Source: Flavobacteriaceae bacterium (GTDB lineage: Bacteria; Bacteroidota; Bacteroidia; Flavobacteriales; Flavobacteriaceae). Taken from it: a stretch of DNA of 58,353 nucleotides. This document shows positions 48,654-52,784 of this stretch, piece after piece; position 1 is the stretch's first letter, and each line of letters opens with the position of its first letter. The stretch covers positions 1 to 58,353 of the forward strand of contig JAQWHT010000096.1 of the NCBI GenBank assembly GCA_029249225.1. Direction: 5' to 3'. The notes beneath the pieces are model-generated. The model worked only from the letters and a program-made list of their open reading frames with translations. It was not told where the DNA came from and ran no database searches. The translations under genes were made by a program, and so were the position numbers.

Positions 48654-49736
48654 TTAAGTATTTAGTATTTTTTCTTGTTTGTTGATCGATTCTTGGTGAA
48701 TTGCTTTAAAAACTCGGAGAATAAATTCCTCAGAAAGTTGACGCTCTTGACCTTCTAAAATCATCTTTCCTAAGATTTCATTCCAGCGTTTATTGTGTAA
48801 TACCGCAACATTATTCGATTTCTTTAACTTCCCGATGCCCACAGCAACATTCATTCGTTTTCCCAATGTATCTAATAAGGTTTGATCAATAACGTCGATC
48901 TGAGCTCTCAGATTATTCAATTCATGCTGGTAAGCTTCTTCATGGGTCGTTTTCTTTCGAACTCTCAAGTCTTTCATGATTTCAACTAAACGAGCGGGAG
49001 TTACCTGTTGTGCAGCGTCACTCCAAGCATTTTCAGGATCGCAATGGGTCTCAATCATCAAACCATCAAAATTAAGATCCAAAGCGGCTTGAGAAATATC
49101 AAAAATTAAATCTCGTTTACCCCCTATATGGGAAGGATCGCAAATCATGGGTAAATCTGGAAATCGATTTTTTACCTCAATCGCAATTTGCCATTCTGGA
49201 ATGTTACGGTATTTTGTTTTTTCATAGGTTGAAAATCCTCTGTGGATCAAACCTAAATTTTTAATATTCGCTGTATACAGTCGCTCTACTCCACCTAACC
49301 AAAGAGCTAAATCTGGATTTACGGGGTTTTTCACTAATACAATCTTATCCGTACCTTCCAACGCATCTGCGATCTCTTGCATGATGAAGGGACTCACGGT
49401 TGATCTTGCACCAATCCAAAGTATGTCAACATCATTTTCCAAGGCCAATTTTACATGATCTTTATTGGCAACTTCGGTAGCTGTCAACAAGCCCGTTTCT
49501 TCTTTTACTTTTTTTAACCAACCCAGACCTATGGCCCCTACACCTTCAAACATTCCAGGGCGTGTTCTAGGCTTCCAAATTCCAGCACGGTAAACCGTTA
49601 CATCGGTATCTTTCAATTCATGAGCAATTTTTAAAACTTGCTCTTCGGTTTCAGCGCTACAGGGTCCTCCGATCACCAAAGGGTGATCCAATCCAAAATT
49701 AGTAAGCCACTGTCGCATTTCTTTTTTATTTTCCAT
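48654..49736 (-). CDS. Bifunctional DAHP synthase / chorismate mutase type II
   Basis: A 360-residue fusion. The N-terminal part (about residues 1-265) is a DAHP synthase of the KDO8P-like class (VIGGPCSAETEEQ, YRAGIWKPRTRPG, VLVKNPVNPDLALW, MICDPSHIGGKRD, GLMIETHCDPENAWSDAAQQ). The C-terminal part (about 275-355) is an AroQ-type chorismate mutase helix bundle (LRAQIDVIDQTLLDTLGKRM). It catalyses the first shikimate step and the chorismate to prephenate step. It is the last gene of the pheA operon. Confidence 0.95.
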   Translation of the reverse strand: MENKKEMRQWLTNFGLDHPLVIGGPCSAETEEQVLKIAHELKDTDVTVYRAGIWKPRTRPGMFEGVGAIGLGWLKKVKEETGLLTATEVANKDHVKLALENDVDILWIGARSTVSPFIMQEIADALEGTDKIVLVKNPVNPDLALWLGGVERLYTANIKNLGLIHRGFSTYEKTKYRNIPEWQIAIEVKNRFPDLPMICDPSHIGGKRDLIFDISQAALDLNFDGLMIETHCDPENAWSDAAQQVTPARLVEIMKDLRVRKKTTHEEAYQHELNNLRAQIDVIDQTLLDTLGKRMNVAVGIGKLKKSNNVAVLHNKRWNEILGKMILEGQERQLSEEFILRVFKAIHQESINKQEKILNT

Positions 49737-49747
49737 TGTAATAAGTG

Positions 49748-50629
49748 TTAAATCGTATTCGTTTTATTAATATTTTTTCCTTCTGGGATACCCTCCAGTA
49801 TGGTTTTTATTGAATTTATCTCTTCCATCTGACGGAACAATGCTGCCCAATTTTTACTTTCCAAAAGAGACTTAAATTGTTCTAAGTTGGCTATATACTC
49901 ACCCAAAACTTCAAGTATATTTTCATTATTTTGCTTAAAAATAGGAGTCCACATTTGAGGTGAGCTTTTTGCCAAACGAACTGTGGATGCAAATCCACTT
50001 CCCGCCATATCAAATATAGTTCGTTCATCTTCCTCTTTTTCCATTACAGTTTTTCCAAGCATAAAAGAGGAAATATGTGAAATGTGAGAAACATAAGCAA
50101 TATGCTGGTCATGGGACAGGGGATCCATTTCCTGTATCTGCATATCCATTGATCGAAAAAATTGCATTGCCCATTCCAATAAATCTGGACGAGTTTTTTG
50201 TGTCTCACAAAGAATTTGTGTCTGGTTCACGTATAAGTCTGGAAAAGCCGCAGAAGGACCTGAAAATTCTGTTCCTGCGATAGGATGTGTACCTAAAAAC
50301 TGGTTTCTTTTAGGATGTAAAGCTACCGCATTACAAATCGAGGATTTTGTAGAACCTGCATCAAACAAAAGTGCATTATCATTAATTTGATCCAATAATT
50401 CTAAAACCAATTTGGCTGCAACATCTACGGGTATAGCCATGATGATAACATCCATTTGTGGAATATGCTCAGACAGTAACTCATGGTCAATAATCTGTTT
50501 TTCGATAGCTTCTTTGAGGTGATTTGGATTTTTATCCCCACCAAATAGTTCTACTTCAGTAAGGTGCTTTTTTGCTGCTAGGGCAAAAGAACCCCCGATC
50601 AAACCCAAACCGATTACTGCTATATTCAT
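49748..50629 (-). CDS. tyrA: Prephenate dehydrogenase
   Basis: A 293-residue enzyme with an N-terminal Rossmann NAD(P) site (VIGLGLIGGSFALAAKK) and the catalytic histidine region (GTHPIAGTEFSGP, then DQHIAYVSHISHI). It oxidises prephenate to 4-hydroxyphenylpyruvate for tyrosine. No chorismate mutase or ACT domain is fused. Its start overlaps the stop of the upstream aminotransferase by 4 nt, and it lies 11 nt upstream of the DAHP synthase fusion. Confidence 0.94.
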   Translation of the reverse strand: MNIAVIGLGLIGGSFALAAKKHLTEVELFGGDKNPNHLKEAIEKQIIDHELLSEHIPQMDVIIMAIPVDVAAKLVLELLDQINDNALLFDAGSTKSSICNAVALHPKRNQFLGTHPIAGTEFSGPSAAFPDLYVNQTQILCETQKTRPDLLEWAMQFFRSMDMQIQEMDPLSHDQHIAYVSHISHISSFMLGKTVMEKEEDERTIFDMAGSGFASTVRLAKSSPQMWTPIFKQNNENILEVLGEYIANLEQFKSLLESKNWAALFRQMEEINSIKTILEGIPEGKNINKTNTI

Positions 50630-51777
50630 GATTCAAATCGCTTTAAAACCTCTTCAATTGTTTTTTCTGGGACACATAGCGAAAAGCGAATATATCCTTC
50701 TCCCTGACTTCCAAAAATTGTCCCTGGTGTTATGAATACATGTTTTTCGTCTAAAATTTTATCTATAAAAACTTCAGCATCTTTTACGCTTTTCGGTAGT
50801 TTTGCCCAAAGAAAAAGACCCACACTATTCAGGTCAAATTCAGCCCCCAATCGGGTAGCTATTTTTTCTACTAACACTCTTCTACGGTGGTAAACTTTAT
50901 TTAAATCTTCAAACCAAGAAGTCTCCATTTTCAACGCGGCAATAGCACCCTTTTGAATGCCAAAAAACATTCCAGAATCCATATTGCTTTTCACTTTGAG
51001 TACAGACTGAATAGTTTCTTCTTTTCCACATAGCATTCCAACACGCCAACCTGCCATATTAAATGATTTACTCAATGAATTTAACTCCAAAGCAACTTCG
51101 TGAGCACCTGGTCGTGATAGAATACTTTGAGGCTTGTCGGTCAAAACAAAACTATACGGATTATCATTGACCAATAAAATATCATGTTGCTTAGCCCAGT
51201 GGATCAAACGATCAAAGGTTGTAACATCCACCTTAGTTCCAGTTGGCATATGTGGATAATTAATCCACATAATTTTGATTTTAGAAGTGTTTAAAGCATT
51301 TAAGGCTTCAAAGTCAGGTTGCCAATTATTGGCTTCTGAAAGAGGGTAAGAAATAGGTTCTGCTTCCATCAATCGTGTTACAGAGGCATAGGTTGGATAA
51401 CCCGGATTGGGAATCAATACTTGATCTCCTGGATTTAGAAAAGCCATTGAGATATGCATGATGCCTTCTTTCGATCCCATTAAGGGCAAAACCTCAGTAT
51501 TTGGATCCAAAGTTACTTGATAATGAGTTTGATAAAATTCACTTATGCTTTCGCGTAACTCTGGAAGTCCCTGATAACTTTGGTACATATGTGCCTTTGG
51601 ATGAGACAATGCATTTTGCAAAGCAGCTATGACCGTAGGATGAGCAGGCAAGTCGGGGCTACCAATTCCCATATTGATGATTGGTTGACCCTTCTTTATA
51701 CGTTGAGCTACTTCTCTTAACTTTCTAGAAAAATAGTATTCTTGCACACTCTCTAATCGTTTGGCTGTCTTATTCAT
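50626..51777 (-). CDS. PLP-dependent class I/II aminotransferase of the aromatic operon
   Basis: A 383-residue fold-type I enzyme: INMGIGSPDLPAHP, NPGYPTYASV, NYPHMPTGT, DNPYSF, PLP lysine Lys237 in LNSLSKSFNMAGWRVGM, and YIRFSLCVP. Position between pheA and tyrA in a 4-nt overlapping chain suggests it aminates phenylpyruvate and 4-hydroxyphenylpyruvate (or prephenate) in Phe/Tyr synthesis. By sequence alone it is also like LL-diaminopimelate aminotransferases, so substrate assignment is an inference from context. Confidence 0.85.
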   Translation of the reverse strand: MNKTAKRLESVQEYYFSRKLREVAQRIKKGQPIINMGIGSPDLPAHPTVIAALQNALSHPKAHMYQSYQGLPELRESISEFYQTHYQVTLDPNTEVLPLMGSKEGIMHISMAFLNPGDQVLIPNPGYPTYASVTRLMEAEPISYPLSEANNWQPDFEALNALNTSKIKIMWINYPHMPTGTKVDVTTFDRLIHWAKQHDILLVNDNPYSFVLTDKPQSILSRPGAHEVALELNSLSKSFNMAGWRVGMLCGKEETIQSVLKVKSNMDSGMFFGIQKGAIAALKMETSWFEDLNKVYHRRRVLVEKIATRLGAEFDLNSVGLFLWAKLPKSVKDAEVFIDKILDEKHVFITPGTIFGSQGEGYIRFSLCVPEKTIEEVLKRFES

Positions 51778-52607
51778 CTCTGATGCTGGGCGTACTCGCC
51801 TAAAATTTTAAATTCAGAAGCCATGATGGCTATCAACTGTCTTGCTTTCTCGTAGTGTGTAAAATCTTCAAAAGTCACATCAACAAAAAAAGCATATTTG
51901 CCTGGTGTCTCAATTACTGGGAGAGATTGAATTTTTGTCAAATTCAACTGGCAATCGCTCATGACGTTGAGAACCGCTGCTAAACTACCCCTCTGATGAT
52001 CTAAAATAAATTTTAAAGCTGCTTTGTTGATCGATTCTTGGGCTATTAAATGACCTTCACTTTGAATAATTACAAATCGGGTAACGTTATTTTTTATTGT
52101 CTGAATTGATGATGCTACGACTTCCATCCCGTATAAATCAGCTGCTTCTTGACTTGCAATAGCACCTATACCTTCAAGCTGATTCTCAGCAATTCGCCTT
52201 GCTTCATCGGCGGTATCTTCAGCCTCCACAAGTCGTATATGAGGATGCTGATGAAAGAAATCCTTACATTGTAACAAGGCCATGGGATGAGAGTGCACTT
52301 CTTTAATATCCTCTATATTTTGACCTGATAACGCCATAAGTTGGTGGTGGATACTCAGACCGTATTCTCCCACAATCTTCAGTTGATTTCTGTCAATTAA
52401 AGCATAATTTGGAATTATGGATCCTGCAATGGAGTTTTCTATGGCCATTACTGCTTGGTTTGCAGTGCCTTTCAATAATGCTTTTACTGTATCATCAAAT
52501 GTTTCACAAACCACTAGTGAAAAATCACGTTTGTAATATTCCTTTGCCACTACGTGGTGAAACGAACCTTTATTTCCTTGAATGGCTATGTTTATCTTAT
52601 CTTCCAT
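51774..52607 (-). CDS. pheA: Prephenate dehydratase
   Basis: A 277-residue enzyme. The catalytic domain (about residues 1-180) starts INIAIQGNKGSFHHVVAKEYY and contains the NNVTRFVII motif with the Thr-Arg-Phe active site. The C-terminal ACT regulatory domain has GSLAAVLNVMSDCQLNLTKIQS and PGKYAFFVDV, so feedback by phenylalanine is likely. It makes phenylpyruvate. ATG at 52607 is chosen; a TTG at 52616 lies inside the terminator T run. First gene of the operon, controlled by the leader at 52615-52784. Confidence 0.95.
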   Translation of the reverse strand: MEDKINIAIQGNKGSFHHVVAKEYYKRDFSLVVCETFDDTVKALLKGTANQAVMAIENSIAGSIIPNYALIDRNQLKIVGEYGLSIHHQLMALSGQNIEDIKEVHSHPMALLQCKDFFHQHPHIRLVEAEDTADEARRIAENQLEGIGAIASQEAADLYGMEVVASSIQTIKNNVTRFVIIQSEGHLIAQESINKAALKFILDHQRGSLAAVLNVMSDCQLNLTKIQSLPVIETPGKYAFFVDVTFEDFTHYEKARQLIAIMASEFKILGEYAQHQR

Positions 52608-52614
52608 TGTACTC

Positions 52615-52642
52615 AAAAAAAAAGTCCCGAAAAATCAGGACT
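52615..52642 (-). terminator. Attenuator terminator upstream of pheA
   Basis: On the minus strand, arms 52642-52635 and 52630-52623 form an 8-bp stem with one G-U pair and a TTTT loop, followed by T9 (52623-52615). It ends 7 nt before the pheA ATG, so transcripts must read through it to express the operon. Its 5' arm can instead pair with 52680-52675 (GGGACT with AGTCCT), giving an alternative fold. Confidence 0.9.
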
Positions 52643-52654
52643 CTTTTTTTTATG

Positions 52655-52680
52655 TTGTAATAATCTTACTACAAAGTCCC
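52655..52680 (-). promoter_or_regulatory. Predicted antiterminator 5' region of the pheA leader
   Basis: GGGACT at 52680-52675 begins right after the leader-peptide stop codon and is complementary to AGTCCT at 52642-52637, the 5' arm of the terminator. Between them 52674-52666 and 52663-52655 form an accessory hairpin. A ribosome paused at the leader stop would cover GGGACT; one stalled at the Phe/Tyr codons would leave it free. Confidence 0.7.
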
Positions 52681-52737
52681 TTATACTTCGTTAAAGAAGT
52701 AATAGAAAACATTGTAATAAGAAAAGTTATTTTTCAT
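52681..52737 (-). CDS. Phe/Tyr-rich leader peptide of the pheA operon
   Basis: An 18-codon ORF on the minus strand, MKNNFSYYNVFYYFFNEV, with eight Phe or Tyr codons between positions 5 and 15 (Phe5, Tyr7, Tyr8, Phe11, Tyr12, Tyr13, Phe14, Phe15). It starts about 10 nt after the predicted transcription start. Its stop (TAA) directly touches the antiterminator strand. It lies upstream of genes that make phenylalanine and tyrosine. This is the classic layout of a ribosome-stalling leader peptide that senses charged tRNA-Phe and tRNA-Tyr. Confidence 0.88.
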   Translation of the reverse strand: MKNNFSYYNVFYYFFNEV

Positions 52738-52753
52738 GACTTTTAAATCGGCA

Positions 52754-52784
52754 CAAATGTAGCATTGCTTTTTAAAAAAACAAA
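52754..52784 (-). promoter_or_regulatory. Promoter of the pheA operon
   Basis: On the minus strand TTTG (52784-52781), exactly 19 nt, then TACATTTG (52761-52754), a perfect Bacteroidota promoter. The start site would be near 52747, giving a leader of about 140 nt before pheA. Confidence 0.75.

Follow-up and report, generated by a model that had tools for sequence, protein, structure and literature searches.

Transcription attenuation by a translated leader peptide is best known from enteric bacteria, where the pheL leader senses Phe alone. Two comparative studies, Vitreschak 2004 and Lopatovskaya 2010, reportedly may already predict leaders of this kind in Bacteroidetes. In 2010, leader-peptide systems were described as not then shown outside Proteobacteria and Actinobacteria, in a text whose available part holds no Bacteroid- or Flavobacter- terms (PMC2965389). 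A map of Bacteroides thetaiotaomicron reports short ORFs in 5′ UTRs that recall attenuation leaders, with pheA unmentioned in the accessible portion (PMC7366714). The F. psychrophilum transcriptome of 2021 finds strong signs of attenuation by leader peptides ahead of amino-acid operons and, in the part available, places pheA and hisG among structured 5′ elements that are found in other Flavobacteriaceae genera and have no Rfam hit (PMC9723704); the pheA element as such had therefore already been noticed. Its section on 5′ cis-regulatory RNAs is without leader sequence, segment layout, spacing or distribution. In open PMC papers, taken without their supplements, we found no description of the pheA leader, its layout, a spacing rule or its spread in Bacteroidia, and PMC9723704 was the sole direct precedent.

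Here we analyse one stretch of DNA, the window, which comprises positions 1 to 58,353 (58,353 nucleotides) of contig JAQWHT010000096.1 of a Flavobacteriaceae bacterium (GCA_029249225.1). Upstream of pheA, on the minus strand, the sequence and its comparison with relatives reveal a leader with aromatic codons, a terminator, a competing pairing between the segments that we number 2 and 3, a regular spacing and conservation of the whole. We conclude with high confidence that this is a ribosome-mediated transcription attenuator, sensing charged tRNA-Phe and tRNA-Tyr (joined by tRNA-Trp in many relatives) on behalf of an operon of pheA, an aminotransferase, tyrA and a DAHP synthase/chorismate mutase. 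As these three genes accompany pheA, the operon would supply Phe as well as Tyr and start their shared pathway; the four genes are probably co-transcribed. Coordinates and homology are given in Table 1, in which titled loci are those of the titled genome collection, with gene order displayed for six of the 80.

Table 1. The pheA leader, its RNA segments and the downstream genes in the window.
Feature	Position	Strand	Basis and remarks
Bacteroidetes-type promoter	52754..52784	-	TTTG at 52784-52781, 19-nt spacer, TACATTTG at 52761-52754
Leader ORF MKNNFSYYNVFYYFFNEV and stop TAA	52681..52737	-	ATG at 52737, TAA at 52683-52681; resembles leaders of relatives
Segment 1, TCTTATTACAA, within leader ORF	52712..52722	-	MFE fold; partner 52674-52664
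Segment 2a, GGGACT, antiterminator 5′ arm	52675..52680	-	Partner AGTCCT in segment 3
Segment 2b, TTGTAGTAAGA	52664..52674	-	Folds; partner is segment 1, or ATTACAA just downstream (antiterminator inner stem)
Segment 3, AGTCCTGA, terminator 5′ arm and antiterminator 3′ arm	52635..52642	-	Sequence and fold
Segment 4, TCGGGACT, terminator 3′ arm	52623..52630	-	Sequence and fold; absent from generic terminator scan
T9 tract of intrinsic terminator	52615..52623	-	Sequence; followed by GAGTACA, then pheA ATG at 52607
pheA, prephenate dehydratase	51774..52607	-	NCBIfam PRK11898.1 E 6e-62, 209.3 bits (cut-off 219); Pfam PDT above cut-off, E 4e-58
Aminotransferase, second operon gene	50626..51777	-	Best NCBIfam match under its cut-off; homologue in 80/80 titled loci
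tyrA, prephenate dehydrogenase	49748..50629	-	NCBIfam PRK08507.1 above cut-off; homologue in 79/80 titled loci
DAHP synthase fused to chorismate mutase	48654..49736	-	NCBIfam matches to both domains, all under cut-offs; homologue in 79/80 titled loci

The promoter, leader, GGGACT, terminator and T9 tract claimed by the first-pass annotation all lie where it had placed them, on the minus strand and to the base. By sequence and fold, an intrinsic terminator stands between leader and pheA: on the minus strand, TTGTAGTAAGATTATTACAACA separates GGGACT from the terminator AGTCCTGA-TTTT-TCGGGACT (52642-52623). The promoter follows TAnnTT(T/A)G, which we take to be the Bacteroidetes consensus. Of 157 distinct leaders (one per peptide from the 178 loci identified by script, loci with N removed), 122 have this motif no more than 45 nt ahead of their ATG, at 15-21 nt in 91 of those 122; the figure for shuffles is 8.7%. 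A generic scan listed neither a terminator nor a sigma-70 promoter at the pheA leader. We think that its stem rule absorbs the A/T extension of the hairpin, and that its promoter model differs from the Bacteroidetes type.

The first-pass annotation had staked its reading on relatives keeping both a leader ORF and the alternative pairing. Our comparison supports that reading, with an aromatic-rich leader and a terminator in 183 of the 201 pheA upstream regions not cut by a contig end, 178 by script and five, missed by the script, by eye (L089, L094, L111, L113 and L116); the remaining 18 have no leader, and since the samples overlap (L004 and L179 have the same leader) and the loci are related by descent, these counts are not independent events. 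Left out were G039 (family), three genus matches, G145 (order) and phylum matches beyond those listed. The script's screen asks for an ATG ORF with 5 of 8 residues aromatic. Within Flavobacteriaceae, 51 of 60 sampled genera, the window's own included, have a PheA match, and with G039 left out 50 upstream regions were read. A complete leader and terminator are present in 46 of the 49 genera with intact upstream DNA, again counting its own, and three (L029, L030 and L038) have no leader; in L022 the upstream region is cut by a contig end yet shows an aromatic run and a terminator. Besides the window's own genome, 32 genomes of its genus have a PheA match, and all 29 genus mates examined have the leader. 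In the titled collection, leader and terminator occur in 79 of the best 80 of 591 relatives, L217 being the one without.

Among other families of Flavobacteriales, 12 of 22 loci with upstream DNA are positive; those without a leader are L097-L100 (one family, with 0.6-Mb genomes), L104-L108 (a family with a distant PheA) and L093. Elsewhere in Bacteroidia, 11 of 15 pheA loci are positive (L114 doubtful), as are L125 and L126, and L112, L119, L121 and L123 have no leader. In a sample of the class, Pfam PDT and protein searches alike detected pheA in 17 of 60 genomes, so the choice of query does not explain the genes missing there. Beyond the class, not one of 18 loci (L127-L144) passes the screen when read from the open-frame start, the best having 4 of 8 aromatic residues. 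One further locus from outside, L124, does have a leader, and its PheA is Bacteroidia-like, 44% identical to that of the window.

Some loci depart from the usual arrangement. In very small genomes (0.5-0.6 Mb; L097-L100 and L123) pheA is kept and the leader is absent. Upstream of pheA in the leaderless L029 and L217 (Gelidibacter) is a similar unrelated short ORF (..FYKFEERNKIN and MFYEFEERNKMN, respectively), which in L029 sits in repeated sequence; another Gelidibacter, L181, retains the leader. L125 and L116 have two tandem aromatic leaders before a single pheA, each with its own terminator-like hairpin as judged by eye.

In the window, the leader has 18 codons, of which eight encode Phe or Tyr and none Trp. 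Among 5000 shuffles of the intergenic region, 55 contained an ATG ORF of 8-30 codons with at least 8 aromatic residues. Across the 157 distinct leaders, Phe is present in 157, Tyr in 156, Trp in 71 and all three in 70. The earlier proposal that both Phe and Tyr are sensed fits the codons of the window, with the qualification that many relatives have Trp codons as well. Similarly, contact between the leader stop and GGGACT, to which the first-pass annotation gave weight, is true of the window but not general: its genome is alone in this among 28 aligned leaders, and the arrangement is uncommon elsewhere. That alignment holds 27 of the 30 genus loci together with L010, with L055 excluded for one N, and L061 and L066 for an in-frame ATG upstream. 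In the nearest relative, L051, the sequence is GAA GCA GGT GGG ACT TTG TAG, and as its downstream TAG is still in frame in the window, the 18-codon leader looks like a lineage-specific shortening, with the stop at 52681-52683 cutting off four codons relative to the stop of relatives. Over the 178 loci, the stop varies in position, at one extreme preceding the start of segment 2 by 7 nt and at the other following it by 31 nt. It lies at least 8 nt beyond that start in 148 loci, and before segment 2 or at most 3 nt from its start in 28. A ribosome at the stop, early or late, would cover most or all of segment 2.

Segment 2 was defined by its best duplex with segment 3, so the pairing itself is by construction, and three controls were applied. 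Shuffling of the zone downstream of the last aromatic codon seldom reproduced the 2:3 duplex: for 144 of the 157 distinct leaders, no more than 5% of trials gave an equal or better one; for the window, the duplex was equalled by 3 of 200 shuffles. When segment 3 was swapped among 52 loci with different cores, none of 2000 permutations reached the real mean energy (-11.89 versus -8.05 kcal/mol), a covariation that bears out the GGGACT/AGTCCT pairing proposed for the window. The segments 2, 3 and 4 change together, as in GGGACT/AGTCCC/GGGACT, GAGGCT/AGCCTC/GAGGCT, AAGGCT/AGCCTT/AAGGCT, TCCGGG/CCCGGA/TCCGGG and AGGCGGGAT/ATCCCGCCT/AGGCGGGAT. Within the genus set, 2:3 pairs hardly vary and none changes on both sides; segment 3 is invariant there, so this set is uninformative on 2:3 covariation. 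RNAalifold, run on the genus set, found 1:2 and 3:4 helices and no 2:3 helix.

The third control concerns the position of segment 2. Distances were counted from the first base of the last aromatic codon, taken to be the final aromatic codon that has two or more further aromatics within the preceding four residues. On this count segment 2 begins 9-16 nt downstream in 151 of the 157 distinct leaders, compared with 19.5% of shuffles. Over the 178 loci the spacing ranges from 6 to 17 nt, with a mode of 13 nt (45 loci). The ribosomal footprint extends some 12-13 nt downstream, counted from the first base of the A-site codon. Because the spacing approximates this footprint, a stall at any aromatic codon, even the last, would leave segment 2 nearly or wholly free, and a ribosome past the aromatic run would cover it. 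The suggestion that a stall near codon 15 frees GGGACT agrees with this rule.

We considered three other explanations for the element. Chance is one: in an AT-rich intergenic region, an aromatic ORF could arise by accident beside an unrelated terminator, and 149 of 3140 shuffled upstream regions (4.75%) do pass the 5-of-8 screen, since T-rich DNA favours Phe and Tyr codons. Against it, the screen is passed by 79 of the 80 titled loci and by 46 of the 49 genera of the family, together with the terminator, the 2:3 pairing and the spacing, and we give chance practically no credence. A role for the leader mainly in tuning pheA translation or Rho access, with the hairpin a weak constitutive terminator, is helped by how close to the leader stop pheA begins, 50-137 nt away in the 46 family loci. 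Coupling or Rho control of this kind does not demand that segment 2 covary with segments 3 and 4, nor that it keep a fixed distance from the last aromatic codon, and we regard it as very improbable.

Nascent-peptide arrest, in which an aromatic peptide together with free Phe or Tyr as ligand would stall the ribosome in the manner of TnaC rather than by slow decoding, could draw on the FYFFF-like core common to many leaders. The order of F, Y and W nevertheless varies (FYYFF, FYFYFF, YYFFF, SFYFYFF), the N- and C-terminal parts differ, and the last aromatic residue is not fixed (102 F, 48 Y and 7 W among the 157 distinct leaders). Arrest by an abundant ligand would moreover let Phe induce the operon, the opposite of what is expected for a biosynthetic one. 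Peptide arrest is very unlikely in our judgement, if a shade less so than coupling or Rho control. Slow decoding of aromatic codons by the ribosome on the leader is the reading that we retain.

Folding calculations add detail to this attenuator. The leader RNA of the window folds at -41.8 kcal/mol, compared with -20.2 (sd 2.9) in shuffles (z -7.5). Its MFE fold has two main parts, the terminator and a long hairpin that joins leader codons 6-9 (segment 1) to segment 2b; when the leader's own sequence is left out, the antiterminator inner stem appears alongside the terminator. The 1:2 hairpin and this inner stem are additions to the 2:3 and 3:4 pairings noted before, and the former completes the classical four-segment layout. 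Its support differs between single loci and the set as a whole. With leader codons exchanged for synonyms taken from the pool of all leaders, as good a 1:2 hairpin arose in no more than 5% of shuffles for 36 of the 157 leaders and in no more than 20% for 93 (chance expectation about 8 and 31 leaders), with a median of 15.5%. For the window the figure is 12%, short of significance for this single locus. Of the cells in the genus set, 78.6% pair; five pairs and 10 cells changed on both sides, as many such cells being seen in 1 of 500 shuffles; the covariation score is 0.117, and a +3 column slide scores slightly higher, at 0.132. The 1:2 hairpin is likely real in general, and a candidate at most single loci, the window included.

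To model the ribosome, we folded 46 leaders minus the covered part, assuming a footprint of 13 nt, at the stage when segment 3 has been made and segment 4 has not. The median 2:3 probability was 0.71 with a stall at the last aromatic codon and 0.00 with the ribosome at the stop. In the window the values were 0.73 stalled, 0.00 at the stop and 0.00 with no ribosome, the last because 1:2 forms (0.77). Relatives without a ribosome often have a high 2:3 probability at this stage (median 0.54), which makes default termination seem weaker in many of them than in the window. When the entire transcript is folded with the ribosome stalled at the last aromatic codon, the terminator wins over the antiterminator in 45 of the 46 models (median 3:4 probability 0.96; exception L043). 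In these models, the preference for the terminator counts against a simple equilibrium reading, and the switch would have to be kinetic, decided during transcription.

The switch would then work as follows. RNA polymerase would be expected to start near 52748, and a ribosome would begin the leader. With ample Phe and Tyr, the ribosome would pass the aromatic codons to the stop and cover segment 2 (GGGACU...), so that segments 3 and 4 would pair and transcription would stop in the U tract before pheA. If Phe or Tyr were short, the ribosome would wait on an aromatic codon, its leading edge, at the last one, about at the start of segment 2; segment 2 would then be free to pair with segment 3, and polymerase would enter the operon. 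Should no ribosome load, 1:2 would pair and the terminator would form by default.

We lean, on balance, towards a single attenuator design, already present in the ancestor of class Bacteroidia, that governs the Phe/Tyr operon as a whole and reads pooled aromatic tRNAs, with tandem pairs in some lineages. If the attenuator works in this way, a spacing of about 13 nt between the last aromatic codon and segment 2 would imply tight coupling of transcription and translation. Translation in Bacteroidetes starts largely without Shine-Dalgarno pairing and, to our knowledge, coupling between ribosome and RNA polymerase has been little studied in the phylum. With both competing helices and the fixed spacing kept across Bacteroidia, the leader could serve as a natural reporter of ribosome-polymerase distance.

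The element also offers a rule for finding amino-acid leaders in Bacteroidia genomes, and the window's own genome has candidates at hisG and trpE, each with codons that match its pathway. At hisG (L225, contig C80), the His-rich leader MTKKRTHSHHVNIRSNEM, which contains HSHH, is accompanied by a 1:2 hairpin and a terminator in the same layout as at pheA, and an antiterminator-like ATCAAACG can pair with CGTTTGAT of the terminator. At trpE (L243, contig C96), the leader MNRTIIFLNGWWYALQQ, with WWY, precedes a strong terminator-like hairpin; inspection by eye showed no clear antiterminator there. The Rfam model Bacteroid-trp has no match in this genome at E up to 0.001, and ilvD was not found in it (about 90% complete).

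At the Rfam gathering threshold, nothing is reported at the pheA leader and only a tRNA elsewhere in the window. A T-box or riboswitch was considered and rejected, with none in the window at that threshold and none among 21 weak Rfam matches. Bacteroid-trp (RF01692) is, as far as the available part of its description goes, likewise a Bacteroidetes leader-peptide RNA (PMC2864571). That family belongs to trp genes, and the window scores 21.2 bits against it, short of its gathering score of 49. The enteric Phe_leader (RF01859, pheL) has in common a leader peptide before pheA and the 1:2, 2:3 and 3:4 logic. The window aligns to this family over its full length (model 1-125 of 125) at 33.4 bits, below the gathering score of 55, and 18 relatives gave 5 matches at E up to 1, the best at 31.8 bits. 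Unlike enteric pheL, the window and its relatives have codons for Phe and Tyr, often with Trp, and a Bacteroidetes-type promoter, and in most loci segment 2 is at least partly within the leader ORF. The operon, unlike enteric pheA, would also make Tyr and carry out the first shikimate step. The mechanism itself is known; the pheA element adds a member to the known class of leader-peptide attenuators.
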